Shown: piece by piece, positions 13,755 to 63,658 of the stretch
How the letters are laid out: the number at the start of each line of letters is the position of its first letter
How positions within the stretch are numbered: the first letter of the stretch is position 1
From: an uncultured Lachnospiraceae bacterium
GTDB taxonomy: Bacteria > Bacillota > Clostridia > Lachnospirales > Lachnospiraceae
Direction of reading: 5' to 3'
NCBI GenBank assembly: GCA_902779305.1
Contig: CACZBD010000011.1
Coordinates: 62,001 to 126,000, forward strand
DNA: 64,000 bases
Position numbers and translations under genes: made by a program
Notes under the pieces: model-generated
Seen by the model: the letters and a program-made list of their open reading frames with translations, nothing else
Told to the model about the DNA's origin: nothing
The model's database searches: none

Positions 13755-13850
13755 GTTAACATAATATCAACATGGTTTACATAAATTCAACAGGAAAAAT
13801 CAGAACAATATCGTTAAAACGAAGAAGATCGGGAAGCATAGTTTACATAA
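13755..13850 (+). repeat. Cluster of three RGTTDACATAAH motifs
   Basis: GTTAACATAA (13755-13764), GTTTACATAA (13775-13784) and GTTTACATAA (13841-13850), all on the plus strand. The first lies before, the second spans, and the third follows the amidase start codon. See the finding on the dispersed 12-base motif. Confidence 0.7.
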
Positions 13851-14905
13851 TCTTCTCTGCAATGCTTATTTTAAACGCCGTGATCTTCACCGGATGCAGT
13901 ATCTTTCCGTCTCTTGATCAGAACGAAAAGGAAGAAGCTGCAGAAAACGCGACGGAAGAAACGATCTCGGAAATGCCGGTGATCGTTGTAAAGTCAAAAG
14001 AAGAAACAACGGAGAATTTTGCGGAAGACGTGACGGAAGAGCAGCAGAGCGTGGCGGAAGTTACGGCGGAAGATCCGCAAGGCGGGACCGGCGAAGCAAC
14101 GGAAGAACCCCCTGCTGCGTCTGTGATCGACAAGCTGGTCTGTGAAGGCGGGCAGCAGGTTTCCCTGGATCCTTCGTGGGAATATGCATCCTTTTCCAAG
14201 ATCAATACCGGAAGCGCCACTTACTATTCGGCGGGGGAGAACCGTTGTGGACTGGTGGTCGGTGTCAATGCCGGACACGGAACAAAGGGCGGAGAAAGTG
14301 TGAAAACCTACTGTCATCCTGATATGACTCCGAAAGTCACGGGCGGTACGACCGGAGCCGGCGCGATCGAAGCTTATGCGGTTTCAAGCGGGATGTCGTT
14401 TAAGAGCGGAGAAAGTGAGGCGAGCGTCAACCTGCGGCTTGCGAAGTTTTTGCGCGATGAATTGCTTGCGGCAGGATATGATGTGCTGATGATCCGCGAT
14501 GGGGATGATGTACAGCTGGACAACGTGGCCCGCACGGTCATCTGCAATAACGTGGCCGACTGTCATATCGCGATCCATTTTGACGGGGACGGTCTCGACC
14601 ATGACAAGGGATGCTTTTTCATTTCGGTTCCGGATGGGATCAAGTCGATGCCGCCGGTGGAAAGCACCTGGCATATGAGTGAGGAACTGGGAACGCAGAT
14701 CGTGAAGGCATTAAGCGCAAACGGCCATAAACTGCACAGCGGCGGGAGCATGGCGATCGATCTGACACAGACGAGTTATTCGACGATCCCTTCCGTCGAC
14801 GTGGAATACGGCAACCAGTGCGCGGATACTTCCGATGAAAATCTGCAGTCCATGGCGGCCGCGACGGTGCAGGGGATCGAGGCGTTTTTCTCTGTTTCCA
14901 ACTAG
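13772..14905 (+). CDS. N-acetylmuramoyl-L-alanine amidase (Amidase_3), membrane-anchored
   Basis: 377 aa. An N-terminal hydrophobic segment ends in IFTGCSIF, an imperfect lipobox, so it is either a lipoprotein or membrane-tethered. Residues about 50-120 are a Glu/Thr-rich spacer. The catalytic domain has zinc ligands His169 (NAGHGTKGG), Glu216 (SEASVNLRLA) and His269 (HIAIHFDGD) plus general-acid Glu345 (VDVEYGN). It cleaves the MurNAc-L-Ala amide bond of peptidoglycan outside the cell, in growth, separation or lysis. Three copies of the dispersed motif crowd its 5' end, one lying on the start codon. A terminator on the plus strand follows inside the convergent gene. Confidence 0.88.
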   Translation: MVYINSTGKIRTISLKRRRSGSIVYIIFSAMLILNAVIFTGCSIFPSLDQNEKEEAAENATEETISEMPVIVVKSKEETTENFAEDVTEEQQSVAEVTAEDPQGGTGEATEEPPAASVIDKLVCEGGQQVSLDPSWEYASFSKINTGSATYYSAGENRCGLVVGVNAGHGTKGGESVKTYCHPDMTPKVTGGTTGAGAIEAYAVSSGMSFKSGESEASVNLRLAKFLRDELLAAGYDVLMIRDGDDVQLDNVARTVICNNVADCHIAIHFDGDGLDHDKGCFFISVPDGIKSMPPVESTWHMSEELGTQIVKALSANGHKLHSGGSMAIDLTQTSYSTIPSVDVEYGNQCADTSDENLQSMAAATVQGIEAFFSVSN

Positions 14906-14921: not shown

Positions 14922-16109
14922 TCAATCAAACGGCTTTTCCTGAAAGAAGAATTCCAGTTCTTCTTTCTTTTTTTGCACTTTTCCTTGGATCATCTCGGCC
15001 GAGCCGCCGCCGTTTGCGTTAAGATGTGCACGCATCGTTTTGGCAAGCTCCCTTGAATCACGTTTCGGATTGCCGGCATAGAAGCGGTAGCCGTCTTCAT
15101 CGTTTCCCGAGAATACGGCGCACCAGGTATCAAATTTATCGCACAGGGCGTTGTAACAGATCTTCATAGAGTGGGGCGTTAAGTCAGATGCGAAAATACA
15201 GGGCGTATCGAGGGAGTCAAGGGAAGCGATCTCACTTAACAGCTGATCTTCCGTGATCCTTGCAAGTGTTTCTTTTGCCTTTTGCAGTTCGTCCCGCTGC
15301 GCACGGATCGCGTCCGGAAGTTTTTCCATAGAAGCAGAGTAGTCTCTGCCAAGTTCGGTGATCATCTCATGTTCTTTTGCAAGCAGTTCAAAAGCGCGAA
15401 AGCCGCAGAGAATGTTGAGCTGGGTGCCGCCGTTTTTGTAAGAGGCATGGGAAACGACCTTCAAGAGACCGATTCGACCGGTGGTCGGAAGATGGGGCGC
15501 GCAGCAGGCACAGGTGTCAACGCCTTCCACGGTCACGATCCGCACCTGTCCTTCGAGTTCTTTCTTGCTACGGTAATCCATGCGGTCAAGTTCTTCTTTG
15601 GAGGGAAACGATACCCGGATCGGAAGGTCATCCCGGATCGCCTCGTTGGCCATAAGTTCCATTCTTGCAATGTCTTCGTCTGCTAAGGTTCCGCTGAAGC
15701 AGACGATGACAGGTTCCTCATCGCTTAAGTGAAAGCTCACGTTGTCATAGCCGAAATGCTGATTGACAAGTCCGCTTAAAATGTGCTCGCCGCTGTGCTG
15801 CTGCATCCGGCTGAGCCGCTTTTCCCAATCAAGTTTACATAACGCAGATTCTCCGACAGATAACGGGGCACTGACTTCATAGACAGGACCCTGCAGGGAA
15901 CATCCTTTGATCCTTTCGTGTCCGTCAAGAACGCGTACGGAATTTCCGATGGTCCCGGTATCGGCTTTCTGCCCGCCGCCTTCGGGGAAAAATACGGTCT
16001 GATCGAGCGTGATATAGTGTCTGTTACCGATCTGCTCGTAGCCGGTCACAACACTTTCACATTCCTTAAGCATGCCGTCTGTCTCATAAAGTTTCTTTGT
16101 TTCTGCCAT
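14922..16109 (-). CDS. Alanyl-tRNA editing protein with DHHA1 domain (AlaX-like)
   Basis: 395 aa. The N-terminal part resembles the beta-barrel of AlaRS/AlaX (FFPEGGGQKADTGTI). The editing site is HSGEH (His105, His109) with CxxxH (Cys202, His206), which binds zinc. The C-terminal DHHA1 domain (GGGSAEMIQGKV) is the tRNA-binding half. It hydrolyses Ser- or Gly-mischarged tRNA-Ala in trans. It is far larger than the minimal AlaX because it keeps coiled coil plus DHHA1, as in the AlaX-L type. One dispersed motif (15833-15842) lies in its coding region, encoding ALCK. Transcribed toward the amidase, ending 16 bases from it. Confidence 0.88.
   Translation of the reverse strand: MAETKKLYETDGMLKECESVVTGYEQIGNRHYITLDQTVFFPEGGGQKADTGTIGNSVRVLDGHERIKGCSLQGPVYEVSAPLSVGESALCKLDWEKRLSRMQQHSGEHILSGLVNQHFGYDNVSFHLSDEEPVIVCFSGTLADEDIARMELMANEAIRDDLPIRVSFPSKEELDRMDYRSKKELEGQVRIVTVEGVDTCACCAPHLPTTGRIGLLKVVSHASYKNGGTQLNILCGFRAFELLAKEHEMITELGRDYSASMEKLPDAIRAQRDELQKAKETLARITEDQLLSEIASLDSLDTPCIFASDLTPHSMKICYNALCDKFDTWCAVFSGNDEDGYRFYAGNPKRDSRELAKTMRAHLNANGGGSAEMIQGKVQKKKEELEFFFQEKPFD
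14943..14974 (+). terminator. Amidase terminator located inside the convergent editing-protein gene
   Basis: AAAGAAGAA (14943-14951), loop TTCCAG, TTCTTCTTT (14958-14966), then C and T7. It is a good intrinsic terminator on the plus strand, using the Lys/Glu-rich C-terminal codons of the opposite gene. Confidence 0.75.
15833..15842 (+). repeat. RGTTDACATAAH motif copy
   Basis: GTTTACATAA preceded by A and followed by C, inside the minus-strand alanyl-tRNA editing gene. Confidence 0.6.
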
Positions 16110-17453: not shown

Positions 17454-17535
17454 TGTTGAGATTTGGCGTGATCCTGCCGATATATATTTATAGGGTTTTT
17501 CAGGGCACTTGACCACAGATATATCGGAGAACGGT

Positions 17536-20500
17536 ATGAACATGAAACGCTTGATGGCAATGCTGCTTACACTCATCCTGCTCCTGCAGGGCTTTCTGCT
17601 TCAGGGAGAGACACTTGTGTTTGCGGCGGAACCGAAACAGGATGAGCTTCAGGTTGTGGAAACCTACGGTGAAGAAATCTCCGGCGGAGAGATCCTCGGG
17701 GAAGAGGTTGACATAACACAACATGACAACTGCGCCGAAGAGGTTAACATAACTGATATACCGGGAACCCTGGAGGAACAATCGGGACAGGATCCGTTAT
17801 CTGAAACTGATGATCTTGACATATCTAATACAACAGATCAAGTTGACATAAACAATCAATCCGACACGGAAAACAACACAGAATTTTTAGCGGAGCAGGA
17901 AGGGGCGTCTGACGAAACCCTTCGGATCTCACTTTCCGGATCACAGATGGAAGAAAAGGAACTGCTCCGTGCACACCTGGATGAGATCAGGGATGCAGTG
18001 GCAGGCCTTGATTTTGCCGAAGGCGAGATCCTCGTCAGCGCAGAAAGCGAAGAAGAAGCGCTGCGCTATGCCGAAGCGTTCCGGGGGGAACTGTTAAGTT
18101 TTTGCGATCAGCTGGCAACGATCCTGGTAGAGGATGTGAAAGCTGCCGTGACCGAATCTGCAGACCCCGAAAGCTGTCTGCCGCCGGCCTGGCCGAATTA
18201 TCTGTCGTCTCGGCCGGAAACAGACGTGGATGAAGCGGCCATTCTGGAAGAGAGCGCGGAGAAGGAAGAACTGCTTGGCACTGAGGCACCGGAAGAAGTG
18301 GCGGGATCCGATCCTGCAGGAAGCGAACGGCTCGGCATGGTCATGACCTATTCCGATCCCTATCTGCAGGTAAGCAACGATCATTACCAGTGGCACCATG
18401 AGCTGCTTGATTCCAATTCTGCCTGGCATGAAGGATATACGGGAAGCAATGTCAAGGTGGCGATCCTCGACACCGGGATCACGGCGCATACGGAACTGAC
18501 AGCCAAGATCAAGGGAAAAGCATACTATCAGGTCAACGGCACCAACAAGGGGATGACCAAGACAAATAATCTTTCCGATATCGTTGACAAGAATGGAAGC
18601 GGAACGCATATGGCAGGGATCATTGCTGCCGTAGCGGGAAACAATCAGGGCGGCTGCGGGATCGCGCCGGGAGCGGAACTCTATATCGGGAACATCTGTG
18701 ACCCGAAGACCAAAGAGGCTTCCACGGAATCCCTGTATTATGCCCTGCAGTTTGCGAGAAAAGACTGGTACGCGGACATCATTGTCGTTGGCTGCACATT
18801 TTACGGATATAACAAACAGATCGATGAACAGGTCAGAGAACTCTATAACGACGGTTGTCTGATCGTCTGCGCCGCAGGAGACGACGGCTCGAACCAGCTC
18901 GTCTATCCGGCCGGCTATGCTAAGGCGGTTTCCGTTGGGGCTGTTGCGATGGATAACCGTCCGACCGATACCACAAACAATAACGAAAAAGTCAGATACA
19001 GCGCACCCGGCTACAACGTGGTGGCAACCTCGAAGGCTTCGTCCTCAGCGCATGAGATGCGTTCCGGAACGCCCCAGGCGGCTGCCTGTGTGGCAGGTGT
19101 CGCGGCGGTTCTGTTAAGCTCCGGAAAAGTCACGGGAACAGGATCTGAAAAAGTCGATCATCTTTTGGCGCTGATCGACAGGGGCTGTAAGAAATCCGCC
19201 ATGGGAAGAGGCACGCCAAACCTTGCGGCTTCCCTGAACATTCCGGCAAGCACGCTGCCGCCCGAACCGCCCGTTTCCACACAGCCGTCCCAAACCGTAA
19301 ATGCACCGTCTCTGACCATGAAACTCCAGTCTGAGACCGGAACCGTGATCTATTACACACTTGACGGCAGCACGCCGGCCTATAAAGCGGACGGTACGAT
19401 CGTCGGCAATCTGTGGACGACAAAGAGCGCGAATTTTATCATCAATGAGGAGCAGAAAAAGGTTCTGCTGAAGATGATCGCGGTGGATACCAAGAACGGG
19501 CAGGCCTCCAAGGTCGCAACCTATACCTACGAATTCAAGCCGCCGGTAACCGGGATAACGATCACGGCGGAAAACGATATCAGAAAAGTTGTCAAAGGCG
19601 GAAGCCTTCAGCTTACCGGAACCGTGAAACCTGCCAATGCAGGCAATCCGAAACTGCGCTGGGATGTAGTGAGCAATCAGATAAATCCCGCCGTCGGTGT
19701 CAGCGTCGATAAAAACGGAAAAGTCACGGTCTCCAAAATCTGCAATACAAGCATAGTAAAAAGCGTTACGATCAGGGCGACGGCAACGGACGGCAGCAAT
19801 AAACAGGCCGAGATCCAGCTGGCCATTACGGATCCGGCGCTGAAGCCCATTGTGAAGTCGATCACGCCTTCTGCCAAAAACATTACCGTAACGGCGGGAG
19901 ACGGCACGACCTGCGTAAAGAACCTGACGGTTGCGGTCACACTCTCCGACGGAAGTGTGGCAGGATCTCCGGCAAAATATGTTACCTGGTATGTTAAGGA
20001 TCCGGCGGTTGCGGCAGTTACACAATCCGGAGACGCGCTGACGGTCACCGGAAAATCACTCGGGAAGACAACGCTTGTCGGCATTGCCTCGGATGGAAGC
20101 AAAAAGCGGACACAGATCGGGGTAACGGTGAAGCAGTATGTGACCAAAGTCACGGTCAGCGGTCCGAAGGGAAATGTGCTGCAGGCAGGGAAGAAGGTTA
20201 CGCTTTCCGCGGCGCTCGAGCCCGGGGGAAAAGTTTCAAGCAAGGCCTTGCTCTGGCGTGTTTCGGACTGGCCGGGGAAAAATCAGGGAGCTGCATTGAA
20301 TACAACGGGTGTATCCGTTACGCCAAAGGGCGGCACTGTCAGCACATCCAAAAAAGCGGTTCCGGGTGTCTATAAGTTTGCGGCAACGGCAGCAGACCGC
20401 GGCACGGTTTCCTCGATGGACTATGCCCTGACGGTAACGGACAAGGCGGTTACGAAACTGGAACTGGTAAAGGACGGCGTGGTGCGCTACGAGGACAGGA

Positions 20501-21378
20501 TCTTCCGTGTGACCAACATCAAGAACGCGAAGACCCAAACGGCTTTCGACATCCGTCTTACGGGCGGAACCGCAAGCCAGGTCGCGCCTCTTTCCTGTGT
20601 GAAAGTAACCAACAGCAATCCGAAACTGGTAACGGTCACGGCTAAGGATACTTCCAAAACCGTAACAGTGGAAGCAGTCGGCACCGGGACGGGCTATGCC
20701 GATATCACGGTTGCCACAACGGACGGCTCGGCGCTGAAAAAAACGTTCCGTGTCTATGTCTCCAATCCGGCAACCAGGCTCTATCTGTCGCTTCCAAACG
20801 CAAGGAGCAAATATCTGGCCTACGGTTCCTCCATGAAACTGGTGCCGTCGCTGGTGGCGGAAAACGGGGTACTGGATGCGAGCGCCAAAAAGTTCAGATG
20901 GACCTCTTCAAGACCGGATCTGCTCCGCGTGCATGAAACTTCGGGACAGTTGACCGGGATGTCCGAGATGGGGAGCATGCCAAGCGCGCAGGGCGTAACG
21001 ATCACCTGCGAGACCACGGACGGCAGTAATCTTTCCGCAAGTTATGTGCTGGTACCGGTCGGGAAAACGGTCAAATTCGAAACGGAAAAACTGGAGAATG
21101 ACGGGTATCTGATCACATCCGTCTGTAAGGAAGCCGGCAGTTATGTCGGTTCGGATTATAAGGTAAAAGTCAGCGCCGCGGGGCTCGGTGCCGTGGTGAA
21201 AGCAGAAAGCGATCCGACGAGAGCAAAGCTGTATCTGTACGGACAGAAAAAGGGACATTACCTGGTCACGGTGAGCAAGATGGACGGGAGTTCCGCGACC
21301 GTTACCAGGAAAGTCACGGTGGAAGAGTCCGTCGATCCGGTGACGCTTGAGACGGTATTCACGCTGAAACTGCAGTAA
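17536..21378 (+). CDS. Secreted subtilase-fold protein with Big2 domains, probably catalytically dead
   Basis: 1280 aa from ATG 17536 (GGAG upstream; an in-frame TTG at 17509 is less likely). The signal peptide is MNMKRLMAMLLTLILLLQG with cleavage near VFAAE. An acidic pro-region (35-270) holds several VDI/VNI repeats. The S8 domain (about 295-545) has Asp312 (ILDTGI) and His358 (SGTHMAG). The serine motif reads SGTPQAAACVAG, with Pro513 where GTS-Met has the nucleophile Ser, and the oxyanion Asn region reads CAAGDD (Asp449). A chitobiase-C-like domain (about 580-670: YYTLDGSTPAY) and about five Big2-type repeats follow. Likely a surface-binding or scaffold pseudoprotease. No cell-wall anchor is seen. 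Confidence 0.82.
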   Translation: MNMKRLMAMLLTLILLLQGFLLQGETLVFAAEPKQDELQVVETYGEEISGGEILGEEVDITQHDNCAEEVNITDIPGTLEEQSGQDPLSETDDLDISNTTDQVDINNQSDTENNTEFLAEQEGASDETLRISLSGSQMEEKELLRAHLDEIRDAVAGLDFAEGEILVSAESEEEALRYAEAFRGELLSFCDQLATILVEDVKAAVTESADPESCLPPAWPNYLSSRPETDVDEAAILEESAEKEELLGTEAPEEVAGSDPAGSERLGMVMTYSDPYLQVSNDHYQWHHELLDSNSAWHEGYTGSNVKVAILDTGITAHTELTAKIKGKAYYQVNGTNKGMTKTNNLSDIVDKNGSGTHMAGIIAAVAGNNQGGCGIAPGAELYIGNICDPKTKEASTESLYYALQFARKDWYADIIVVGCTFYGYNKQIDEQVRELYNDGCLIVCAAGDDGSNQLVYPAGYAKAVSVGAVAMDNRPTDTTNNNEKVRYSAPGYNVVATSKASSSAHEMRSGTPQAAACVAGVAAVLLSSGKVTGTGSEKVDHLLALIDRGCKKSAMGRGTPNLAASLNIPASTLPPEPPVSTQPSQTVNAPSLTMKLQSETGTVIYYTLDGSTPAYKADGTIVGNLWTTKSANFIINEEQKKVLLKMIAVDTKNGQASKVATYTYEFKPPVTGITITAENDIRKVVKGGSLQLTGTVKPANAGNPKLRWDVVSNQINPAVGVSVDKNGKVTVSKICNTSIVKSVTIRATATDGSNKQAEIQLAITDPALKPIVKSITPSAKNITVTAGDGTTCVKNLTVAVTLSDGSVAGSPAKYVTWYVKDPAVAAVTQSGDALTVTGKSLGKTTLVGIASDGSKKRTQIGVTVKQYVTKVTVSGPKGNVLQAGKKVTLSAALEPGGKVSSKALLWRVSDWPGKNQGAALNTTGVSVTPKGGTVSTSKKAVPGVYKFAATAADRGTVSSMDYALTVTDKAVTKLELVKDGVVRYEDRIFRVTNIKNAKTQTAFDIRLTGGTASQVAPLSCVKVTNSNPKLVTVTAKDTSKTVTVEAVGTGTGYADITVATTDGSALKKTFRVYVSNPATRLYLSLPNARSKYLAYGSSMKLVPSLVAENGVLDASAKKFRWTSSRPDLLRVHETSGQLTGMSEMGSMPSAQGVTITCETTDGSNLSASYVLVPVGKTVKFETEKLENDGYLITSVCKEAGSYVGSDYKVKVSAAGLGAVVKAESDPTRAKLYLYGQKKGHYLVTVSKMDGSSATVTRKVTVEESVDPVTLETVFTLKLQ
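17707..17851 (+). repeat. Cluster of three RGTTDACATAAH motifs plus one near-match
   Basis: GTTGACATAA (17707-17716), GTTAACATAA (17743-17752) and GTTGACATAA (17842-17851), with a degenerate CTTGACATAT at 17815-17824. All are in the same codon frame, encoding VDI, VNI, LDI, VDI in the acidic pro-region of the subtilase-like protein. Confidence 0.7.
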
Positions 21379-22361: not shown

Positions 22362-23273
22362 ATGGCAGCGATTACAGCGGCAATGGTAAAAGAATTAAGA
22401 GAAATGACCGGCGCGGGCATGATGGATTGCAAGAAGGCTCTGAGTGAGACGGACGGCAACATGGACGAAGCCGTTGAGGTATTAAGAAAGAGCGGCGCAG
22501 CTAAGGCCGAGAAGAAGGCAAGCAGGATCGCAGCAGAGGGGATCTGCCGCATCGCCTGCGACGGCAACACGGCGGTTGTTGCGGAAGTCAATTCCGAAAC
22601 AGACTTTGTTGCCAAGAATGAAGTATTCCAGGAGTTCGTACAGAAGGTTGCGGATACCGCACTTGCATCCGGCTTAAAGGGCGGCAAGGACGGCGAAGAT
22701 GTGGAAGCCCTTCTTGAGAAGGACGGTCTGAAGGATCTCGTGGTTGAGAAGACCGCAAAGATCGGTGAGAAGTTATCCGTAAGACGTTTCCAGCGTGTCG
22801 AGGATGAGTGCATTGCAACTTATATCCACGGCGGCGGAAGGATCGGCGTGATCGTTGCCGGCAGCGGCGCAAGCGATGATGCTGCCAAAGAAGCGCTGAC
22901 CAACCTTGCGATGCAGGTGGCTGCACTTTCTCCGAAGTTCATTTCCCAGAAGGATGTGGACCAGGCGTTCTTAGACCATGAGAAAGAGATCATCAAGGCG
23001 CAGATCGAGAACGACCCGAAGGAAGCTGCAAAGCCCGACAAGGTAAAAGAGGGCATGATCATGGGCCGTATCAACAAGGAAATGAAAGAGTTCTGCCTGC
23101 TCGATCAGGTCTATGTCAAAGCGGAAGACGGCAAGCAGTCCGTTGCAAAATATCTCGAATCCGTAAACAAGGATCTGAAGGTAGACTGCTTCGTTCGTTT
23201 CGAAGTCGGCGAAGGCATGGAAAAGAAGAACGAGGATTTTGCTGCGGAAGTTGCGGCACAGATGAACGCATAA
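22362..23273 (+). CDS. tsf: Elongation factor Ts
   Basis: 303 aa from ATG 22362, one base after the rpsB stop and behind GAGGAGG inside its last codons. The N-terminal UBA-like domain (AAMVKELREMTGAGMMDCKK) and EF-Tu contact motif SETDFVAKNEVFQEF are present, followed by two EF-Ts core repeats. It is the nucleotide exchange factor for EF-Tu. The common downstream pyrH-frr genes are absent; a terminator closes the operon instead. Longer in-frame starts inside rpsB are rejected because the family begins here. Confidence 0.97.
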   Translation: MAAITAAMVKELREMTGAGMMDCKKALSETDGNMDEAVEVLRKSGAAKAEKKASRIAAEGICRIACDGNTAVVAEVNSETDFVAKNEVFQEFVQKVADTALASGLKGGKDGEDVEALLEKDGLKDLVVEKTAKIGEKLSVRRFQRVEDECIATYIHGGGRIGVIVAGSGASDDAAKEALTNLAMQVAALSPKFISQKDVDQAFLDHEKEIIKAQIENDPKEAAKPDKVKEGMIMGRINKEMKEFCLLDQVYVKAEDGKQSVAKYLESVNKDLKVDCFVRFEVGEGMEKKNEDFAAEVAAQMNA

Positions 23274-23334
23274 TTCTCAAGGCAAAGTTCTTCCTTACAG
23301 CAAGATCTAAAGGATCGATAAAGATCAGACAGAA

Positions 23335-23363
23335 AGACCGTCACAACTGTGGCGGTCTTTTTT
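23335..23363 (+). terminator. Terminator of rpsB-tsf
   Basis: AGACCG(T)CACA ... TGTG(G)CGGTCT (23335-23358) followed by a T run to 23363; clear intrinsic terminator 60 bases after tsf. Confidence 0.9.
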
Positions 23364-23412
23364 GCGGTTTATGACGTTTGATCTTTATTATGATCCTGTG
23401 CGGATCCTGCAC

Positions 23413-44362: not shown

Positions 44363-44364
44363 GC

Positions 44365-44401: not shown

Positions 44402-44443
44402 TGCGCATACCGCGCGAGAAGAGAAGAAGAAAAGGAGAGAAAA

Positions 44444-53078: not shown

Positions 53079-53293
53079 AAAAAGAGGAGATCGAAAAACT
53101 GTCGATCGAAGAATCATTTGACAGTGTTGAGTTAACTCTGGAGAAACTGCGCAGTGACGAGCTTCCCCTCGAAGAATCATTCCAGTTATATCAGGACGGC
53201 ATGCAGATATTAAAAAGCTGCGCAGCCAAGATCGACAAGGTCGAAAAACAGGTGCAAAAACTCAGTGAGGATGGTGAAACCGTTGCGTTTTGA
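53075..53293 (+). CDS. xseB: Exodeoxyribonuclease VII small subunit
   Basis: 72 aa helical hairpin: LSIEESFDSVELTLEKL then LPLEESFQLYQDGMQILKSC. It binds the coiled coil of XseA. Overlaps xseA by four bases and the next gene by about 20. Confidence 0.96.
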   Translation: MKKEEIEKLSIEESFDSVELTLEKLRSDELPLEESFQLYQDGMQILKSCAAKIDKVEKQVQKLSEDGETVAF

Positions 53294-54188: not shown

Positions 54189-54201
54189 CGGGTGATTTAT
54201 A

Positions 54202-56070
54202 ATGATTCTTGACCGGATCAAAAAACCAAATGATATCCAGCAGATCGATCCGAGGGATTACGGACAGCTTGCGCAGGAGATCCGTGATTTTCTCGTGCAG
54301 AAGATCAGTGTGACCGGCGGGCATTTAGGCTCAAATCTCGGGGCCGTGGAACTGACCATGGCGCTGCATCTTTGCATGCACTTTCCGGAAGACCAGGTGG
54401 TCTGGGATGTCGGACACCAGTCTTACACGCATAAACTCCTGACCGGGAGAAGAGACGGTTTTGATGAACTCAGAAAATACGGTGGCATGAGCGGCTTCCC
54501 GAAACGAAAGGAATCGCCCTGTGATGCTTTTGACACCGGACACAGTTCCACTTCCGTTTCGGCAGGACTCGGTCTTGTGAAAGCAAGAGACCTTGCGGGC
54601 AAGCAGCATGCGGTCTTTGCCGTGATCGGAGACGGCGCCCTGACAGGCGGCATGGCTTATGAGGCGCTGAATAACGCTTCCAGACTGAAGACCAATTATA
54701 TCGTGATCTTAAACGATAACAATATGTCCATTGCCGAGAATGTCGGCGGTGTTTCGAAATACTTAAGAAGCATCCGGACGGCGGAGCCTTACCGTGATCT
54801 GAAAGTGAACATGGAGAACACGCTTTTGAAGTTTCCGAAGGGCGAAGCGGTCGTGGATGCCCTGAAACGCTATAAGAGCGGGATCAAGCAGCTCCTGGTA
54901 CCCGGCATGTTTTTTGAAGACATGGGGATCACCTATTTAGGGCCGATCGACGGCCACGATATTTCCGCCATGACAAAAATGATCCAGGAAGCCAGAAAGA
55001 TCCCGAAATGCGTCATGATCCATGTGATCACAAAAAAGGGAAAGGGATTCTTGCCGGCGGAACGTCATCCGGCCAGATTCCACGGGACCGACCCTTTCGA
55101 TATCGAAACGGGGCTGCCGACCGTGAACCGGACGAAGTCCAATTATACGGATGTATTTTCCACGATCATGTGTAAACTCGGCGCAAGAAACGAGAAAGTC
55201 TGCGCCATTACGGCCGCGATGCCGGACGGCACCGGCTTAAAGCGTTTTTCCAACATGTATCCGGACCGGTTTTTTGATGTGGGGATCGCGGAAGAACACG
55301 CCGTGACTTTTGCGGCAGGCCTTGCCGCAGGCGGCTTCAGACCGATCGTTGCCGTCTATTCCTCGTTCCTGCAAAGAGCATATGATCAGATCCTGCATGA
55401 TGTCTGCATCCAGAATCTTCCCGTGATCTTTGCGATCGACAGGGCGGGGCTTGTCGGAAGCGACGGAGAAACGCATCAGGGCCTGTTTGATTTTTCCTAC
55501 CTGTCTTCGATCCCCAATATGACGCTGATGGCACCGAAGAACAAGTGGGAACTGTCGGATATGCTGAAATACGCCCTGACGCTTGTGAGTCCTGTTGCGA
55601 TCCGTTATCCGCGGGGACTTGCCTATGACGGACTCGAAGAATTCAGAGCACCGGTATCCTATGGGAAGGCGGAAATACTCTATGAGGAAGAGGATATCGC
55701 GCTCTTTGCCATCGGCAGCATGGTCAAAACGGCCGAGGCTGTCAGACATTCCCTGAAAGAGAAGGGCTTTTCCTGCTCCCTGATCAATGCCAGATTCTGC
55801 AAACCGATCGATGAGGAGACCATTACGGAACTCAGTGAAAATCATAAGCTGATCGTAACACTCGAAGAAAACGTCAAGAGCGGCGGCTTCGGGGAGAAAG
55901 TGCTGGATTATGCGTCGGTGCATGAACTGAATACCAGAGTGCTTGTCATCGCGCTTCCGGATGATTATATCGAGCACGGAAATGTAGATCTTCTGAAACA
56001 TGAGACGGGGATCGACGAAGAATCAGTCACAAAACGGATCATCACCGAGTATGCGGGGCTGTGCCAATGA
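54202..56070 (+). CDS. dxs: 1-deoxy-D-xylulose-5-phosphate synthase
   Basis: 622 aa thiamine-diphosphate enzyme. HLGSNLGAVELTMALH, VGHQSYTHKLLTGR, the TPP motif GDGALTGGMAYEALNNA ... LNDNNMSI and the transketolase pyrimidine region FDVGIAEEHAVTFAAGLA are present. First step of the MEP isoprenoid pathway, feeding the adjacent IspA. Full length. The tlyA start overlaps its stop. Confidence 0.97.
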   Translation: MILDRIKKPNDIQQIDPRDYGQLAQEIRDFLVQKISVTGGHLGSNLGAVELTMALHLCMHFPEDQVVWDVGHQSYTHKLLTGRRDGFDELRKYGGMSGFPKRKESPCDAFDTGHSSTSVSAGLGLVKARDLAGKQHAVFAVIGDGALTGGMAYEALNNASRLKTNYIVILNDNNMSIAENVGGVSKYLRSIRTAEPYRDLKVNMENTLLKFPKGEAVVDALKRYKSGIKQLLVPGMFFEDMGITYLGPIDGHDISAMTKMIQEARKIPKCVMIHVITKKGKGFLPAERHPARFHGTDPFDIETGLPTVNRTKSNYTDVFSTIMCKLGARNEKVCAITAAMPDGTGLKRFSNMYPDRFFDVGIAEEHAVTFAAGLAAGGFRPIVAVYSSFLQRAYDQILHDVCIQNLPVIFAIDRAGLVGSDGETHQGLFDFSYLSSIPNMTLMAPKNKWELSDMLKYALTLVSPVAIRYPRGLAYDGLEEFRAPVSYGKAEILYEEEDIALFAIGSMVKTAEAVRHSLKEKGFSCSLINARFCKPIDEETITELSENHKLIVTLEENVKSGGFGEKVLDYASVHELNTRVLVIALPDDYIEHGNVDLLKHETGIDEESVTKRIITEYAGLCQ

Positions 56071-56939
56071 AGGAACGTCTGGATGTCATTCTCGTAAAGC
56101 TTGGTTACGCAAGCAGCCGTGAAAAGGCCAAAGCCATCATCATGTCCGGAAATGTTTTTGTCAAAGGGCAGAGAGAGGACAAGGCCGGTGCGGTCTTTGA
56201 TCCGGAAGGGCTGGACCTGACGGTGAAGGACACCGCGCAAAAATACGTGAGCAGGGGCGGCCTGAAACTGGAAAAGGCCATGCAGGAATTTCCGATCACG
56301 TTAAAGGACTGCGTCTGCATGGACATCGGGGCCTCAACCGGCGGATTCACGGACTGCATGCTGCAAAACGGCGCCGCAAAGGTCTATGCGATCGATGTCG
56401 GACATGGACAACTGGACTGGAAACTTCGGAATGACGAACGCGTTGTCTGCATGGAAAAGACCAATTTCCGCTATGTAACACACGAGCAGATCGAAGAACC
56501 GATCGATTTTGCCTCTGCGGATGTGTCATTCATTTCCCTGACGAAGATCCTCCCGGCAGCATATCCGCTGTTAAAAGAGGATGCGAAGATGGTCTGCCTG
56601 ATCAAACCACAGTTTGAAGCAGGCAGGGAGAAGGTCGGCAAGAAGGGTGTCGTCAGGGACCCGAAGGTGCACGAGGAAGTGCTGCATGCGATCTTGTCGT
56701 TTTGTAAAAATCACGGCTTTGCGGTTCTGGGGCTGACATATTCCCCGATCAAAGGGCCGGAGGGCAATATTGAATATCTGGCCTATTTAGAAAAGGTTGA
56801 CATAAAACAAGGTCAAGTTAACATAACAGAAAAAGCGGTTGACATAAATTCGGAATTAGTTAACATAATCGATCCGGATGCGGAAATAAAGCAGACGGTG
56901 CATGCCCTGGTGGAGCGGGCCCATTCGGAGTTGGAGTAG
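56067..56939 (+). CDS. tlyA: TlyA-family rRNA 2'-O-methyltransferase with repeat-bearing linker
   Basis: 290 aa from ATG 56067, overlapping the dxs stop as ATGA. The S4 domain (RLDVILVKLGYASSREKAKA) is followed by an FtsJ/RrmJ-like Rossmann domain: MDIGASTGGFTDCML for SAM, AIDVGHGQLDWKL, LIKPQFEAGREKVGKKGVV. It methylates rRNA riboses. After residue about 240, where the family usually ends, comes an extension VDIKQGQVNITEKA / VDINSELVNIIDPD. It has a 7-residue period because it encodes four copies of the dispersed DNA motif at exact 21-base spacing. A charged helix follows. Confidence 0.92.
   Translation: MKERLDVILVKLGYASSREKAKAIIMSGNVFVKGQREDKAGAVFDPEGLDLTVKDTAQKYVSRGGLKLEKAMQEFPITLKDCVCMDIGASTGGFTDCMLQNGAAKVYAIDVGHGQLDWKLRNDERVVCMEKTNFRYVTHEQIEEPIDFASADVSFISLTKILPAAYPLLKEDAKMVCLIKPQFEAGREKVGKKGVVRDPKVHEEVLHAILSFCKNHGFAVLGLTYSPIKGPEGNIEYLAYLEKVDIKQGQVNITEKAVDINSELVNIIDPDAEIKQTVHALVERAHSELE
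56796..56868 (+). repeat. Four RGTTDACATAAH motifs at exact 21-bp period
   Basis: GTTGACATAA 56796-56805, GTTAACATAA 56817-56826, GTTGACATAA 56838-56847, GTTAACATAA 56859-56868, alternating G and A at the variable base, with unrelated 11-base spacers. 21 bp equals two helical turns and seven codons. It lies 75 bases before the nadK start. Confidence 0.85.
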
Positions 56940-56942
56940 TCT

Positions 56943-57785
56943 ATGCGTAATTTTCATGTCATGACAAATGCGGATAAGGATCAGGATCTTCTCGTTACGA
57001 AACGGATCCGTGATTATCTGACGAGAAACGGCTGCAGGTGCGGATATGAGATCGTTGACCGTACCCCTGCTGAAAAATCCCTGCATCTTCCTGAAGATAC
57101 CGAATGCGTGATCGTATCGGGCGGAGACGGCACGATGATCCGTGTGGCGGATCTTGTTGCGGGGAGCGTGCCGATCATCGGTGTGAACTTAGGACGCCTT
57201 GGCTTTCTCGAAGAGATCGAGGTCGACAGGCTCGAGGAAATGCTAAAAAGGCTTATCGCGGATGATTTTGAGATCGAGGAACGCATGATGCTGACCGGGA
57301 CCGGATCCCGTCTGCAGGAGGAAAAACTGCACGCTTTGAATGATATCGTCATTTCCGGCAGCGGTTCCATGCAGATCCTGACGCTTAAGATCTTTGTCAA
57401 CGACCTGCTTCTGGCAACGTATTCCGCGGACGGCATGATCGTATGCACGCCGACGGGATCGACTGCCTATAATCTGTCCGCCGGCGGACCGATCGTGGAG
57501 CCTGATGCCAAATCGATCCTTCTGACGCCGATCTGCCCGCACAACCTGAATTCAAGATCGATCGTGCTTTCTGCGGATGATGAGATCACCATCCGTGTGG
57601 GAGAATCCAGATACGAAGGGGAACAGCATGCGGAGGCTTCTTTTGACGGCGGCAGGAAGGTTGAACTGTTACCGCTTGACGCGATCACGATCCGGCGATC
57701 GCGCATCAGCACTTCTTTGATCAAACTGAACAGGGAAAGCTTCTTAAAAACACTTTCCGCAAAGTTTACGGGGTATATGGCATGA
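56943..57785 (+). CDS. nadK: NAD kinase
   Basis: 280 aa. VSGGDGTMIRVADLVAG (GGDG catalytic motif), GVNLGRLGFLEEI, NDIVISGSG and TPTGSTAYNLSAGGPIVEP are complete. It makes NADP from NAD. Three bases after tlyA, and just downstream of its motif array. Overlaps argR by four bases. Confidence 0.96.
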   Translation: MRNFHVMTNADKDQDLLVTKRIRDYLTRNGCRCGYEIVDRTPAEKSLHLPEDTECVIVSGGDGTMIRVADLVAGSVPIIGVNLGRLGFLEEIEVDRLEEMLKRLIADDFEIEERMMLTGTGSRLQEEKLHALNDIVISGSGSMQILTLKIFVNDLLLATYSADGMIVCTPTGSTAYNLSAGGPIVEPDAKSILLTPICPHNLNSRSIVLSADDEITIRVGESRYEGEQHAEASFDGGRKVELLPLDAITIRRSRISTSLIKLNRESFLKTLSAKFTGYMA

Positions 57786-58237
57786 AGAACAGCAGACAGA
57801 AGAAGATCCTGGAACTGATCGCGGACCGTCCGGTGGAGACACAGGATGAGCTTGCGCGTCTTCTGCAGGAGGCCGGCTTTCATGTGACGCAGGCAACGGT
57901 TTCGAGAGACATCAAACAGATGCAGCTGGTCAAGATCGTGGACGCCAAAAGCGGCAGACAGCGTTATGCCTCCCGTAAGGAGATCCCGAAGGATTTCGGC
58001 GGAACCTATATCCGCGTCTTCAAAGAGGGTGTGATCTCCATGGATCTTGCCATGAACATTCTTGTTGTCAAGACGGTTTCCGGCATGGCGATGGCGGTTG
58101 CCGCGGCCATGGATGCGATGGATATTGACAGCATTGTCGGAACCATTGCGGGGGATGACACGATCATGTGCGCGATCCGGACGATCGAAGATGCAAAGGA
58201 CGTTCTTGACAGACTGAATGCAGTCTGGAAAATCTGA
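57782..58237 (+). CDS. argR: Arginine repressor ArgR/AhrC
   Basis: 151 aa. The winged HTH is QKKILELIADRPVETQDELA with QATVSRDIKQMQLVK as recognition helix. The C-terminal arginine-binding hexamerisation domain contains GTIAGDDTIMCAIRT. It controls arginine biosynthesis and catabolism, and in this conserved cluster it is housekeeping-located. Start overlaps the nadK stop (ATGA). Confidence 0.95.
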   Translation: MKNSRQKKILELIADRPVETQDELARLLQEAGFHVTQATVSRDIKQMQLVKIVDAKSGRQRYASRKEIPKDFGGTYIRVFKEGVISMDLAMNILVVKTVSGMAMAVAAAMDAMDIDSIVGTIAGDDTIMCAIRTIEDAKDVLDRLNAVWKI

Positions 58238-58262
58238 ACATTCACATAAGAAACGGGGGACC

Positions 58263-59960
58263 ATGTTACAGAGTATTCATGTAAAAAACATCGCATTGAT
58301 CGACGATGTGGAAATAGAACTGGGAAAAGGCCTGCATGTATTGAGCGGGGAGACCGGGGCCGGTAAATCGATCATCATCGACGCCGTGAATTTCACGCTC
58401 GGGAAACGCATGCCCAAAGAAGTCGTCAGGGAAGATGCCGATTATGCGCTTTGCGAGCTCGTATTTACGATCGAAACGCCGCAGCAGGAGCAGGTGCTGG
58501 CCGATCTGGATCTGCCTGATGAGGACGGCCTGATCGTCATGCAGAGAAAGATCACGAACGGCCGGAGCCTGTGCCGCGTCAATGGTGAAAATGTCTCGGC
58601 GTCTGCCTTAAAGGAACTGGCGGGCGTTCTGATCGACATTCACGGACAGCATGAGCATCAGTCCCTGCTGTATGAGAAGAAACACAGGGAGATCCTGGAC
58701 GCTTTTTGCGGAAAGGACTGCAGTGACCTTTTGGAACAACTGAAAACGGAATACGGAAATTATACGGCGCTGAAGAAGGAATACGAGGACGCCGCCACGC
58801 TGCAGAAAAACCGCGTCAGGGAACTGGAACTGGCCGAGTTTGAGGCGCATGAGATCGAAGAGGCTTCCCTGAAAGCGGGAGAAGATGAGGAACTGGAAGA
58901 AGCCTACCGCAAGATGGTCAATGCAAGAAAGATCGCGGAAGCGGTGCAGACGGCGCATTACAGTACCGGGTACGATTCGCAGGAGAGTGCCGGCAGCATG
59001 ATCGGCCGCAGTATTTCCGAACTGAGAAACGTGGCGGACTGCGATAAGGAACTTGAAGGACTGCTTGCCCTGCTTACGGACATTGACGGGCTTTTGAATG
59101 ATTTTAACAGATCGATCGCGGACTACGAGAAGAGCCTGCAGTTTGAGGAAGAGACATTCCGGGAAACGGAGGAACGTCTGAATCTGGTAAACCGTCTGAA
59201 GAGTAAATACGGGCAGACGATCGAAGAAGTTCTTGCCTACTATGAGGAACTGCAGGAAAAGATCGCAAAACTGAACGATTTTGATGCCTATCTTTCGGAT
59301 CTGTCTGCAAGGATGAAACAGGCGGAGAGTCTGTGCCTGAAGCTTTGTTCAGAACTGTCGGCGGTTCGGAAAAAGGGTGCTTTGCTTCTTGCAAAAGAAC
59401 TGCAGAAAGGCCTGCTCGATCTGAATTTTTTGGATGCGCGTTTTGAGATCCCGGTGGAAGAAGATCCTTCGCATATGAGTGCGGAGGGCTATGATCATGT
59501 GCAGTTTCTGATCAGCACCAATCCGGGTGAGAAAGTCAAACCCCTTGTCAATGTTGCATCGGGCGGCGAACTGTCCAGGATCATGCTGGCACTCAAAGCG
59601 GTACTGTCCGAAAAGGATCAGGTCAGTACGCTGATCTTTGACGAGATCGATACCGGGATCAGCGGGATCACGGCCGGAAAGGTATCCGAGAAACTCTCCG
59701 ATCTTGCAAGAGAGCACCAGGTACTGTGCGTAACGCATCTGCCGCAGATCGCCGCGATGGCAGATATGCATTATGAGATCAGCAAGTCGGTGACAGACGG
59801 CAGGACGGTTACAAAAGTAAAGAAACTGACAAAAGAAGAAAGCGCAAGGGAACTTGCACGTATGCTTTCCGGCGCGCAGGTGAGCGAAGCTGTACTGAAG
59901 AACGCGGAAGAAATGCTGCAAAGGGCAGCTGAGCATAAAGCGAAACATGCAGAGGGATGA
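58263..59960 (+). CDS. recN: DNA repair protein RecN
   Basis: 565 aa from ATG 58263 (GGGGGA upstream; an earlier in-frame start at 58218 overlaps argR). SMC-like ATPase: Walker A SGETGAGKSIIIDAVNF, coiled-coil arms (about 160-370), signature VASGGELSRIMLALKAVL and Walker B LIFDEIDTGISGITA. It organises broken DNA ends for recombination repair. spoIVB-spo0A do not follow it here. Confidence 0.96.
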   Translation: MLQSIHVKNIALIDDVEIELGKGLHVLSGETGAGKSIIIDAVNFTLGKRMPKEVVREDADYALCELVFTIETPQQEQVLADLDLPDEDGLIVMQRKITNGRSLCRVNGENVSASALKELAGVLIDIHGQHEHQSLLYEKKHREILDAFCGKDCSDLLEQLKTEYGNYTALKKEYEDAATLQKNRVRELELAEFEAHEIEEASLKAGEDEELEEAYRKMVNARKIAEAVQTAHYSTGYDSQESAGSMIGRSISELRNVADCDKELEGLLALLTDIDGLLNDFNRSIADYEKSLQFEEETFRETEERLNLVNRLKSKYGQTIEEVLAYYEELQEKIAKLNDFDAYLSDLSARMKQAESLCLKLCSELSAVRKKGALLLAKELQKGLLDLNFLDARFEIPVEEDPSHMSAEGYDHVQFLISTNPGEKVKPLVNVASGGELSRIMLALKAVLSEKDQVSTLIFDEIDTGISGITAGKVSEKLSDLAREHQVLCVTHLPQIAAMADMHYEISKSVTDGRTVTKVKKLTKEESARELARMLSGAQVSEAVLKNAEEMLQRAAEHKAKHAEG

Positions 59961-59961
59961 C

Positions 59962-62274
59962 ATGTCGAAGAGAAGAGCTGACAGATCGCTGAACAGATCG
60001 CACAACAATGCATTATGTAAACCAAAATGGTATTTTGTTGCTTTGAGCGTATTGGCAGTTGTATTTTCCGTATCTTTTTTCTGTCATCAGGCCAATGCCG
60101 CATCCGATCCCGAAAAGTCTAAAGAGGTGGATATCCTCTTTACACATGATCTGCATTCCTGCCTTGAGAGTTATGTGACGACACGCGGCATGCAGAACGG
60201 AACGGAACCTGTCGAAGCGGGCGGATTTGCAAGGCTGAAAACGGTGATCGATGAAGCAAGAGCGGTGAATCCCGACACCCTTGTCGTGGATGCCGGTGAT
60301 TTCCCGATGGGAACGCTTTATCAGGTGCTGTTCGACACCGATGCGCCGGAACTCAGGATGATGGGAAGGCTTGGATTTGATGCGACAACCTTCGGAAATC
60401 ATGATTTTGACTACGGCTCCGAAGCGCTTGCCAAAATGTTCCTTGCCGCAGCAGGATCAGGAGACCCGAAGCCGGCCTTTGTCATCAATAATTTTGATTT
60501 TTCCTCCTATAACACAGGTTCCAAGATGATCTACGATGCGCTGAACGAGTACGGATTCAGCGAGTATGTCGTGCTGCAAAAAGGTGATGTAAAGATCGCG
60601 GTATTCGGGACGCTCGGCTACGATGCGATCGACTGTGCGCCGCGCTGTGAACTGACATGGCTCGACCCCATCGAATGCAGTAAGAAAACGGTTGAAAAGA
60701 TCAAGGCCAATGAGGATGTGGACATGATCGTCTGCCTGTCGCATTGCGGGATCAGCTCGAATCCGAAGAAGTCGGAGGATGAGATCCTTGCCAAAAAAGT
60801 GCCGGATATCGATGTGATCATCAGCGGACACAGCCACAGTGTGCTTGAAGAGCCGATCATTGTGAAGAATACGATCATCATGTGTTCCGGCTGCTACGGC
60901 TATTATACGGGAAGCGCACATCTGAAGCAGAACAAAAAAGGACGTTGGGAAGTTTCTGACTATAAACTGATCGAAATGGATTCATCGATCGAAGAAGACC
61001 CGGAGACGCTGAAGGAGATCGCTGTTTTCGCGGCCAAGATCGATGACAGGTACTTAAAGGATTTCGGCTATACGGCGGAGCAGGTTGTCGCAACGAACGC
61101 TTATTCCTTTGAGAGCGTTGACGATATGTATTTTGACCATCGGGAGCACCGTCTGGGGAATCTGATCACGGACGCTTACCGGTATGCGGTCAATGCGACG
61201 CCTTCGGGAATGGAACATCTGGTGGATGTTGCCGTAACGCCTGCCGGAACGGTCAGAGACACCTATTATCCCGGGGATATCACCATAGCCGATGTATTCG
61301 GATCTTTTTCCCTAGGATCCGGGGCCGACGGGACGGTCGGCTATCCGCTGATCAGCTTCTATCTGACCGGACAGGAACTGAAAACGGTAGCAGAGATCGA
61401 TGCATCCGTATCCGATCTGATGGAATCGGCAAGGCTTTATATGAGCGGGCTCGGATTCTCCTTTAATCCGCACAGGATGATCCTGAACAGGATGAATGAC
61501 ATCTGGCTGAACGAAGCCCTGATGTCCTCTTCGAAGACGAAGATCTCCAATAAAAAGATGTACCGTGTGGTCACGGACATGTATTCGGGAATGATGCTGC
61601 AGTCCGTAACGGATGTCAGCAAGGGGCTTCTGCATGTGGAACCGAAATTTGCCGATGGTACGCCGGTCACGGATTTCAATGATGTGATCGTCTATCAGGC
61701 GGACGGCAGGGAACTGAAAGCCTGGGATGCCATTGCGCAGTATATGCAGTCCTTTGAAAAGGATGAAAACGGGATCAGCAGGATCCCGGAGTATTACTCG
61801 GTCACGCATGAGCGTAAGATCGTTGATGATTCCAGAAATCCCATTTCCCTGTTCAAGCGCCCCAACCGCTTCGGCATGGCAGCGTTCGGGATCGTGGTCC
61901 TGCTTCTTTTGATCATCGTGCTCATTGTGAGAGCCCTTATCAGAAGGAGACGCAGGAAGAAGCAGGAACTGGCCGTTCCGGTCGAGAAGTTTATCGATGT
62001 CGAGGTGATCGAGTCGGAAAGAAAGGTCGCAAAGACGCCTGAAAAGACGGAAGAAAAGAAAGAAGAGCCTGCAGAAGAGAAGAGGGAAGAGAAACAGGAA
62101 GAGTCTGCAGAAGAGAAGAAAGAGGAGAAAGAAGACAAACAGGAAGAGTCTGCAGAAGAAGAGAAAGAGGAAAAGCAGGAAGAAACGGAAAAAGAGAAGA
62201 TAGAAGAAAAACAGGAACAGAAAAAAGAGGAAACACCAGAAACAAAAGAAGAAAGCGAGGACAAAGATGTATGA
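59962..62274 (+). CDS. Membrane-anchored 5'-nucleotidase / UDP-sugar hydrolase family protein
   Basis: 770 aa from ATG 59962. The signal peptide (about 22-47) ends HQANAAS. The metallophosphatase domain has Asp63/His65 in FTHDLHSCLE (Ser where DxHG has Gly), VVDAGDFPMG, TFGNHDFDYG, SHCGI and SGHSHSVLEEP. The 5_nucleotid_C domain starts near ENLITDAYRYA-like HRLGNLITDAYRYAVN (about 395-620). A membrane helix (about 630-658) and a cytoplasmic basic/acidic tail of KEEKQEESAEE-type repeats close the protein. It cleaves extracellular nucleotides or UDP-sugars for salvage. The next gene starts inside its tail. Confidence 0.9.
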   Translation: MSKRRADRSLNRSHNNALCKPKWYFVALSVLAVVFSVSFFCHQANAASDPEKSKEVDILFTHDLHSCLESYVTTRGMQNGTEPVEAGGFARLKTVIDEARAVNPDTLVVDAGDFPMGTLYQVLFDTDAPELRMMGRLGFDATTFGNHDFDYGSEALAKMFLAAAGSGDPKPAFVINNFDFSSYNTGSKMIYDALNEYGFSEYVVLQKGDVKIAVFGTLGYDAIDCAPRCELTWLDPIECSKKTVEKIKANEDVDMIVCLSHCGISSNPKKSEDEILAKKVPDIDVIISGHSHSVLEEPIIVKNTIIMCSGCYGYYTGSAHLKQNKKGRWEVSDYKLIEMDSSIEEDPETLKEIAVFAAKIDDRYLKDFGYTAEQVVATNAYSFESVDDMYFDHREHRLGNLITDAYRYAVNATPSGMEHLVDVAVTPAGTVRDTYYPGDITIADVFGSFSLGSGADGTVGYPLISFYLTGQELKTVAEIDASVSDLMESARLYMSGLGFSFNPHRMILNRMNDIWLNEALMSSSKTKISNKKMYRVVTDMYSGMMLQSVTDVSKGLLHVEPKFADGTPVTDFNDVIVYQADGRELKAWDAIAQYMQSFEKDENGISRIPEYYSVTHERKIVDDSRNPISLFKRPNRFGMAAFGIVVLLLLIIVLIVRALIRRRRRKKQELAVPVEKFIDVEVIESERKVAKTPEKTEEKKEEPAEEKREEKQEESAEEKKEEKEDKQEESAEEEKEEKQEETEKEKIEEKQEQKKEETPETKEESEDKDV
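60013..60022 (-). repeat. RGTTDACATAAH motif copy
   Basis: Minus-strand GTTTACATAA preceded by G, near the 5' end of the nucleotidase gene, encoding ALCK on the plus strand. Shares 17 identical bases with the copy at 52802. Confidence 0.6.
62020..62265 (+). repeat. Glu/Lys-rich low-complexity repeat in the nucleotidase tail
   Basis: Purine-only repeats such as GAAGAGTCTGCAGAAGAG encode KQEESAEEKKEEK units. Likely slippage-prone; long shadow frames on the minus strand come from this bias. Confidence 0.75.
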
Positions 62275-63658
62275 TCTTGTGATCCATAACGCAAAGGTCG
62301 TTACGGAAAAAGGAATCGTGGAAGCCAATCTGGCAATTCTTGACGGAAAGATCGCGAATATCCTTCCGGTCATGGCAGAGTGCGAAGAACCGTCACAGCT
62401 TCCGGAGAGCAAAGAAGTGATCGATGCAAAAGGCTGCTATCTTCTGCCGGGCGGCGTGGATGCGCATACGCACCTGGATATGCCGCTTTCAAACGGGTTA
62501 AAGAGCGCGGATGATTTTGTGAGCGGGACCATCGCGGCAGCAGTCGGCGGAACGACAACGGTGATCGATTACGCCTGCCAGGATGCAAACGGAACGCTCA
62601 TGGAGGCGCTTACGGAGTGGAAGAAGAAAGCGAAGGGCGCCTGCGTGGATTACGGCATGCACATGAGCATCGTACGCGCGGACGATCAGACGCTTTCGGA
62701 AATGGCCGACATGGTTTCCCAGGGTGTGACGAGTTTTAAGACCTATCTGGTTTATGACATGCGTCTGTCGGATGAGGAACTCTACCGGGTTCTTGAAAGG
62801 TCCGCAAATCTTGGGACCATCGTGACGGTTCACTGCGAGAATTATGGTGTTTTGCAGTACAGGACGAAAAAACTGCTTGCCGAAGGAAAATGCGAACCGA
62901 AATACCATGCGGTCTCCCGCCCCGACAGATGCGAAGGAGAGGCCGTCAACCGTGTGCTGCAGATCTCTGCCATGGCGGATATGGCGCCGGTCTACATCGT
63001 TCACAATACCTGCAGGGAAAGCATCAAATGCATTGAAGAATCCAGATCCATGGGGCATCCCGTATTTGCCGAGACCTGTCCGCAGTATCTGCTGCTGGAT
63101 GATTCCAAATACGAACTGGAGCCGGAAGAATGCGTCAAGTATGTCATGTCCCCGCCGCTGCGTTCGAAGGCTGACCAGCATTATCTCTGGGAAGCATTAA
63201 AGAACGGAACCGTCAAAGTCGTGGCAACGGACCACTGTCCATTCTCTTTGGCGGAAAAGAAGAGAGGTTTACATAATTTTACAGAGATCCCGAATGGCGG
63301 AACCGGGGTTGAAGAACGCATTCCGCTGATGTATTCTGAAGGAAGGAAACACGGCTTAAGCTACGTGGAGATCGCGAAGCTGACGGCCACGAATCCTGCT
63401 AAGCTCTTTGGAATGTATCCGAGAAAGGGAACGATCCGGATCGGTTCCGATGCGGACCTGGTACTTTATGATCCGGATAAAACAGTTACAATAACGCACG
63501 ATATTTTACATGAGAATGTAGATTACACCTGTTATGAAGGAATGACGGTCGAAGGGTATCCCGTCATGACGCTTCTGAGGGGACAGATTCTTGCCAAAGA
63601 TGGTTCGTTTACCGGCAAGATGGGACAAGGCCAATATGTAAGGAGAGATTTACCATGA
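62267..63658 (+). CDS. hydA: Dihydropyrimidinase / hydantoinase-type amidohydrolase
   Basis: 463 aa. Metal ligands His67 and His69 ([12 protein letters not shown]), carboxylated Lys158 ([11 protein letters not shown]), [15 protein letters not shown] and the Asp of [11 protein letters not shown] are all present; [17 protein letters not shown] follows as in the family. It opens dihydropyrimidine or hydantoin rings, in pyrimidine breakdown. Beside an extracellular nucleotidase this suggests nucleotide scavenging. Start overlaps the nucleotidase end by 8 bases, stop overlaps glgA. A dispersed-motif copy lies at 63267-63276. Confidence 0.93.
63267..63276 (+). repeat. RGTTDACATAAH motif copy
   Basis: GTTTACATAA preceded by G and followed by T, inside the dihydropyrimidinase gene, encoding GLHNF. 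Confidence 0.6.

Follow-up and report, generated by a model that had tools for sequence, protein, structure and literature searches.

XerD, SMC and dispersed sites in bacterial chromosomes

The XerD-binding sites (XDS) of Bacillus subtilis are defined in sequence by the XerD arm of dif and are proposed to act on SMC without recombination. According to Karaboja et al. (2021), these sites reportedly unload SMC in this bacterium. In the same organism, SMC is loaded at parS and travels along both chromosome arms until XerD unloads it close to the terminus (PMC8357415), and an obstacle on one side of parS reduces SMC to either side of it, an effect likened to the unloading by XerD (PMC12322038). 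The dif site of B. subtilis is printed as ACTTCCTAGAATATATATTATGTAAACT, that of E. coli ends in TTATGTTAAAT and the one predicted for F. alni ends in TTATGTCAAGT (PMC3025954). RipX, the XerD of B. subtilis, prefers the 11-bp right arm of its dif, and the streptococcal recombinase XerS acts alone beside its own site (PMC5357621). A different use of dispersed short sites is made by the matS/MatP system of E. coli, which marks a region without detected condensin MukBEF (PMC10945525). In the literature consulted, unloading of SMC by XerD is described for B. subtilis only, and in the open-access literature searched we found no report of XerD sites in Lachnospiraceae.

An exact dispersed motif in a Lachnospiraceae genome

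The window analysed here is a stretch of 64,000 nucleotides from the genome of an uncultured Lachnospiraceae bacterium (G000; 3.25-Mb assembly in 32 contigs), and other G-numbers denote relatives. A first-pass annotation had listed in it 15 copies of a 12-base motif, all of which were confirmed at their positions. These 15 exact copies of GTTNACATAA compare with an average of 0.32, and never more than 3, in 100 dinucleotide shuffles, and the RGTTDACATAAH 12-mer has an expectation of 0.09 under a third-order Markov model (0.07–0.16 across orders 2–5), in agreement with the earlier estimate of less than one copy by chance. The flanking rules also hold for the full set: each copy has A or G just before it, no copy has G just after it, and C never occurs as the fourth base. 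The genome-wide count had been set beforehand as the test by which the motif could be refuted, and it gave 95 copies of RGTTDACATAAH in G000 against 6 for a reversed control pattern. This is a fairer figure than the 44 copies observed versus 0.5 expected (Markov) in 400 kb of other G000 stretches, because most of the latter were picked from contigs already known to be rich. One-mismatch variants stay at background level in the window and in the sampled stretches, and GTTCACATAA is absent from the stretches of G000, G004 and G180 that were examined, which indicates that the sequence requirement is exact.

On the plus strand, the first copy (13754–13765) falls between an acyltransferase gene (12623–13732) and an amidase gene (13772–14905), the next two take up the first codons (13774–13785) and the N-terminal part (13840–13851) of the amidase ORF, a fourth (15832–15843) lies within a minus-strand tRNA_SAD gene (14922–16109), and three more are found in a subtilase ORF (17509–21378), one near its N-terminus (17706–17717) and two further on (17742–17753 and 17841–17852). 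After a motif-free interval at 17.9–40.6 kb, minus-strand copies occur within truB (40644–40655; gene at 40395–41291) and within the gene of the exonuclease VII large subunit (52801–52812; gene at 51804–53078). Four plus-strand copies with a 21-bp period (56795–56806, 56816–56827, 56837–56848 and 56858–56869) occupy the tail of a TlyA-type methyltransferase gene (56061–56939). The last two are a minus-strand copy near the start of a 5'-nucleotidase ORF (60012–60023; ORF at 59947–62274), just past a recN-like gene (58218–59960), and a plus-strand copy within an amidohydrolase gene (63266–63277; gene at 62267–63658). Altogether, 14 of the 15 copies overlap ORFs of at least 100 aa. The window also brings together a translation gene cluster (nusA, infB, truB and pnp; 34410–46525) and the genes xseA, dxs, TlyA-type, nadK, argR and recN-like at 51804–59960.

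Local arrays do exist in G000, as in the window at 56795–56869 and on contig C1 at 59021–59070, although the copies are not one duplicated repeat: their flanks are unrelated and both strands are used. No helical period common to the arrays could be seen by eye among spacings of 14, 18–21, 25, 32, 36, 42, 66 and 99 bp. Among the roles originally guessed for the motif, a chromosome-organising site selected as DNA is the best supported, and neither an uptake sequence (discussed below) nor a response-regulator site fared well. PhoP-type sites consist of direct repeats spaced by about 11 bp and located upstream of genes. In the window, the smallest distance between copies is 20 bp, and a response-regulator site is a poor fit because the copies are dispersed on both strands and nearly all overlap ORFs.

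As to its presence in related genomes, all 37 members of the genus that were searched carry copies above twice the control. In 24 genomes of other families of the order, the counts range from 1 to 29 and mostly do not exceed the control, the highest ratios being 7 versus 2 (G058) and 8 versus 3 (G054).

Identity with the XerD arm of dif

Read on the opposite strand, RGTTDACATAA becomes TTATGTHAACY, and in this form it agrees at all 11 positions with the arm of B. subtilis dif that belongs to XerD (PMC3025954). The first-pass annotation had known of no described Firmicutes system that uses this motif, a statement that has to be withdrawn in view of this match. The degenerate D position takes in the T, A and G that occur in the dif sites of B. 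subtilis, E. coli and F. alni, and the E. coli and F. alni arms depart from the motif at its second base (PMC3025954). The copies are very probably XerD sites. An information profile built from the sites of G000, G004 and G180 is limited to 11 positions, apart from a weak flanking signal, and shows nothing of an opposite arm; since it covers one 11-bp arm and the second is absent, the sites are to be regarded as half-dif rather than dif. A loose dif pattern allowing up to two mismatches gave a single match in G000, at window position 15832, where the XerC arm is poor. One match was likewise obtained with the reversed control, and this candidate for a full dif was discarded; there was no convincing dif among the sites examined.

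Association with xerD across the family

We surveyed 348 genomes of the family, calling enriched those with at least 12 copies and at least twice the control plus one, and distinguishing genomes with a strong XerD (E-value of at most 1e-80) from those without a match at 1e-55. Enrichment was found in 68 of the 167 genomes with a strong XerD, in 3 of 34 intermediate ones and in 2 of 147 without a match (Fisher 9.6e-20; 5e-21 to 2e-11 with alternative thresholds), and the 348 genomes span 333 genera, which reduces the effect of shared ancestry and does not remove it. Exact copies number between 12 and 175 in the 68 enriched strong-XerD genomes. A previous comparison covered 40 genomes picked by their motif count (22 rich, 2 weakly rich and 16 poor); here a XerD above the curated cut-off occurs in 21 of the rich genomes, in both weakly rich ones (G341 and G353) and in one of the poor ones; in two further poor genomes, G141 and G214, with 0–1 copies, XerD scores slightly below that cut-off (312–315 bits). 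XerD is thus near-necessary for enrichment and not sufficient, as 99 of the 167 strong-XerD genomes are unenriched. Genome G121 combines a full-length XerD (355.7 bits) with zero copies of the motif.

The protein itself looks intact. In G000, xerD lies on C1 at 110280–111140 and scores 354.6 bits against a cut-off of 329.6, and the proteins of G004 (347.2 bits), encoded on C21 at 22626–23486, and of G341 (345.1 bits) likewise pass this NCBIfam XerD equivalog threshold. The latter two retain the catalytic R, K, HxxR, H and Y where these are expected, as read by eye, and the best solved relative of the G004 protein is XerD 1a0p. A second protein of the XerC/D class is often not evident: among the 21 rich XerD-bearing genomes of the 40-genome set, 16 have no second XerC/D-class match of at least 200 bits, G000 being one of the five that do (221 bits, on C4), and in the 348-genome survey, which scored up to six candidates per genome, 52 of the 68 enriched genomes have a single match at E 1e-55. 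Absence of XerC was rejected as the feature that sets enriched XerD genomes apart from the others, the frequency of single matches being similar in enriched (52 of 68) and unenriched (82 of 99) genomes (p 0.33).

A weaker Xer-like match of about 120 to 175 bits is present in 39 of the 40 genomes, the exception being G390, which is 68% complete. In G341, a gene of this kind (1922081–1922974) sits where the GC skew turns from plus to minus (1.922 Mb), and in G180 it lies on C10 at 326057–326965, within the 300–400 kb interval of the skew flip. The G341 protein scores best as XerS (192.8 bits, below the family cut-off of 267). By eye, the stretch upstream of its gene resembles part of difSL (arms taken from PMC5357621). 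This arrangement suggests that dimer resolution may no longer need XerD here, and it is probably carried out by a separate XerS-like recombinase.

Among the alternatives, the one that survives best is that the sites belong to another, undescribed nucleoid or domain-marking protein, the target of which resembles the XerD arm by chance, with xerD merely following the same lineages. It would account for the two enriched genomes without a XerD match (G093, 90% complete, and G188, 69% complete) and for the many XerD genomes devoid of enrichment. Moreover, nothing dif-like that would independently fix the specificity of XerD in this family rose above background in the 70 kb scanned around the G341 terminus. 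Against it stand the match at 11 of 11 positions with the B. subtilis arm and a tie to xerD that extends over 333 genera, and we consider this explanation unlikely.

Distribution along the chromosomes

The sites are unevenly spread, both over all 12 contigs of G180 (chi-square p 4e-30) and over the 9 of 32 contigs that hold 76 of the 95 sites in G000 (chi-square p 2e-14). In G180, 36 of 54 sites are concentrated in the 180-kb contig C4 and 11 in C7, nine of these at 345–380 kb, and 2 of the 54 are on C10, the 544-kb contig that contains the terminus, the dense C4 lying elsewhere. In G000, the counts go from 1 in C3 (296 kb) and 0 in C9 (217 kb) to 28 in C11 and 15 in C15 (75 kb). The contigs bearing dnaA are site-free in the three genomes where they were located (G180 C1, G004 C14 and G029 C5). 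The densest focus seen is that of G004 C1:260387–276184, with 14 exact sites in about 16 kb. On a smaller scale, G180 C4:58144–58275 gathers six exact and several near copies (of the CATTTACATAA type) in about 130 bp.

G341 offers a complete chromosome, which is weakly enriched (50 sites versus 38 in the control) and has 17 of the 50 around the origin, at 421–690 kb, in an interval that makes up about 9% of its length. Sampled stretches gave 15 sites versus 1.1 expected in the nine located at 400–720 kb and 14 versus 6.5 in the other 51, the sampling being denser at 400–720 kb since sites were already known there. Sites are found within about 2 kb on either side of four perfect parS copies (525.4–525.8 kb), and the same region shows a palindromic 11-6-11 pair of XerD arms set 6 bp apart. 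The parS copies detected on G180 C1 and G004 C14 have no site nearby.

That the sites form a classical terminus domain, as in B. subtilis, is a quite improbable alternative. Besides the matching motif, it can draw on the site-free dnaA contigs of G180, G004 and G029 and on several dense G000 stretches that map to the terminus half of G341, at 0.78–0.91 of the origin-terminus distance; however, the sparse contig C8 also maps near that terminus (0.92), the terminus contig of G180 is at background and the dense stretch of G341 is at the origin. Synteny of the dense stretches with G341 is suggestive at gene level in G004 and G180 (p 0.09 in G000), and at stretch level the correlation with G341 position is not significant in G000, G004 or G180. 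A domain restricted to the terminus is contradicted in two genomes, G180 and G341, and where the sites lie with respect to origin and terminus varies from genus to genus, an argument against an unchanged B. subtilis terminus model.

Indications of selection on the DNA

In the genus, sites occur in the tails of TlyA-type genes at 9 of the 30 loci examined, out of 37 matches in 35 genomes. The tails with sites are longer (a median of 199 versus 176 residues from a fixed point, p 3e-4), and the sites fall in the variable part of the protein that follows the catalytic domain and precedes the last helix. Both orientations are used, being read as VDI or VNI on the coding strand and as YVN from the opposite one. 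In three other species (L098, L111 and L116), two sites 218 bp apart lie in one frame of 559–568 aa, probably recN, and the pair persists though neighbouring residues differ. A comparable case outside genes is a diverged intergenic repeat of about 250 bp in G341, where three sites remain intact in three aligned copies. These copies (at about 273, 293 and 2767 kb; L175, L181 and L204) combine the three half-sites with GTACCNCAAAA...TTTTGNGGTAC inverted repeats, and a further trio of sites occurs at 1043 kb.

A possible role for the half-sites

Sequence identity, enrichment, regional confinement, the tie to xerD and an intact XerD in two genomes are all direct observations. From them we infer that XerD would bind stand-alone half-sites, singly and in small arrays, within a delimited chromosomal region, acting by its presence on the DNA rather than by recombination, and that by removing or limiting SMC over the marked domain it would shape the travel of SMC-ScpAB, dimer resolution having been handed to the XerS-like recombinase. 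Taken as a whole, this reading has somewhat the better of the argument. It is favoured, among other things, by the sites beside parS in G341, since parS is where SMC is loaded in B. subtilis (PMC8357415). The step from half-sites to SMC, drawn by analogy with B. subtilis, is a serious though tentative possibility when considered separately. A domain on one arm could suffice for it, as the block on one side of parS lowers SMC on both sides (PMC12322038). A bolder version, which we put forward more hesitantly still, is that in part of the family XerD has turned from a recombinase into a dedicated domain protein. A XerS-like enzyme at the terminus would have taken over dimer resolution, many lineages would have lost XerC, and exact half-dif sites would have multiplied to dozens, up to 175 in one genome, across a domain able to shift its place, lying in the middle of an arm in one genus and surrounding parS in another. 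A gene tail would even have been lengthened to accommodate arrays.

Other explanations fare worse. Many exact half-sites could in principle sequester XerD, and such a titration might guard against mobile elements that exploit Xer recombination; we regard this as very improbable, as it leaves the regional confinement unexplained and the XerD arm is considerably degenerate in the dif-like sequences of phages (PMC3025954). A DNA uptake sequence kept by biased transformation would also be abundant, short, exact, present on both strands and mostly in ORFs, yet it is hardly credible here because the copies are regionally confined and track XerD, and no halo of one-mismatch copies surrounds them. IS21-type elements carry multiple end repeats. 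The sites might accordingly be thought relics of such mobile elements, given the look of the arrays and the diverged G341 repeat with its three motif copies, but the unrelated flanks make this equally far-fetched, and for G000 it is largely refuted by the two PF01695 matches (C8 and C9), both at motif-free loci.

If XerD does act on SMC from half-sites in this way, a widespread and much expanded form of chromosome organisation would exist in a large family of the gut and rumen, with an organising role of XerD separate from dimer resolution and away from the terminus. These genomes would then make it possible to test directly if zones of SMC unloading can change their chromosomal position, and would provide an example of coding sequence shaped by chromosome-organising sites.

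Comparison with known systems

The resemblance to matS/MatP lies in the dispersed short sites, whereas the protein and the sequence are different and matS marks the terminus. As for XerS/difSL of streptococci, the likeness is that of the G341 terminus protein, which scores best against XerS; it remains below the cut-off and is not proposed as the binder of the motif. With dif, which combines two 11-bp arms around a 6-bp centre and occurs once per chromosome at the terminus, the sites share an identical XerD arm, that of B. subtilis, but they lack the XerC arm and the centre, occur in many copies and lie off the terminus in the two genomes where this could be tested. The closest comparison is with XDS, with which the Lachnospiraceae sites have in common the XerD site sequence, the occurrence of several sites per chromosome and the presence of xerD, in G000 among others. 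They differ from XDS in their number, 12 to 175 copies per enriched genome with a strong XerD and 95 in G000, and in their placement, mid-replichore in G180 and around parS in G341 instead of at the terminus. We do not class the motif as a B. subtilis XDS, since the terminus location was tested in these two genomes and the sites proved to lie elsewhere in both. The system is probably a variant of the XerD-SMC one, set apart by a far larger number of sites, by their unusual placement and, for the majority of enriched genomes examined, by a XerD that has no evident XerC beside it.
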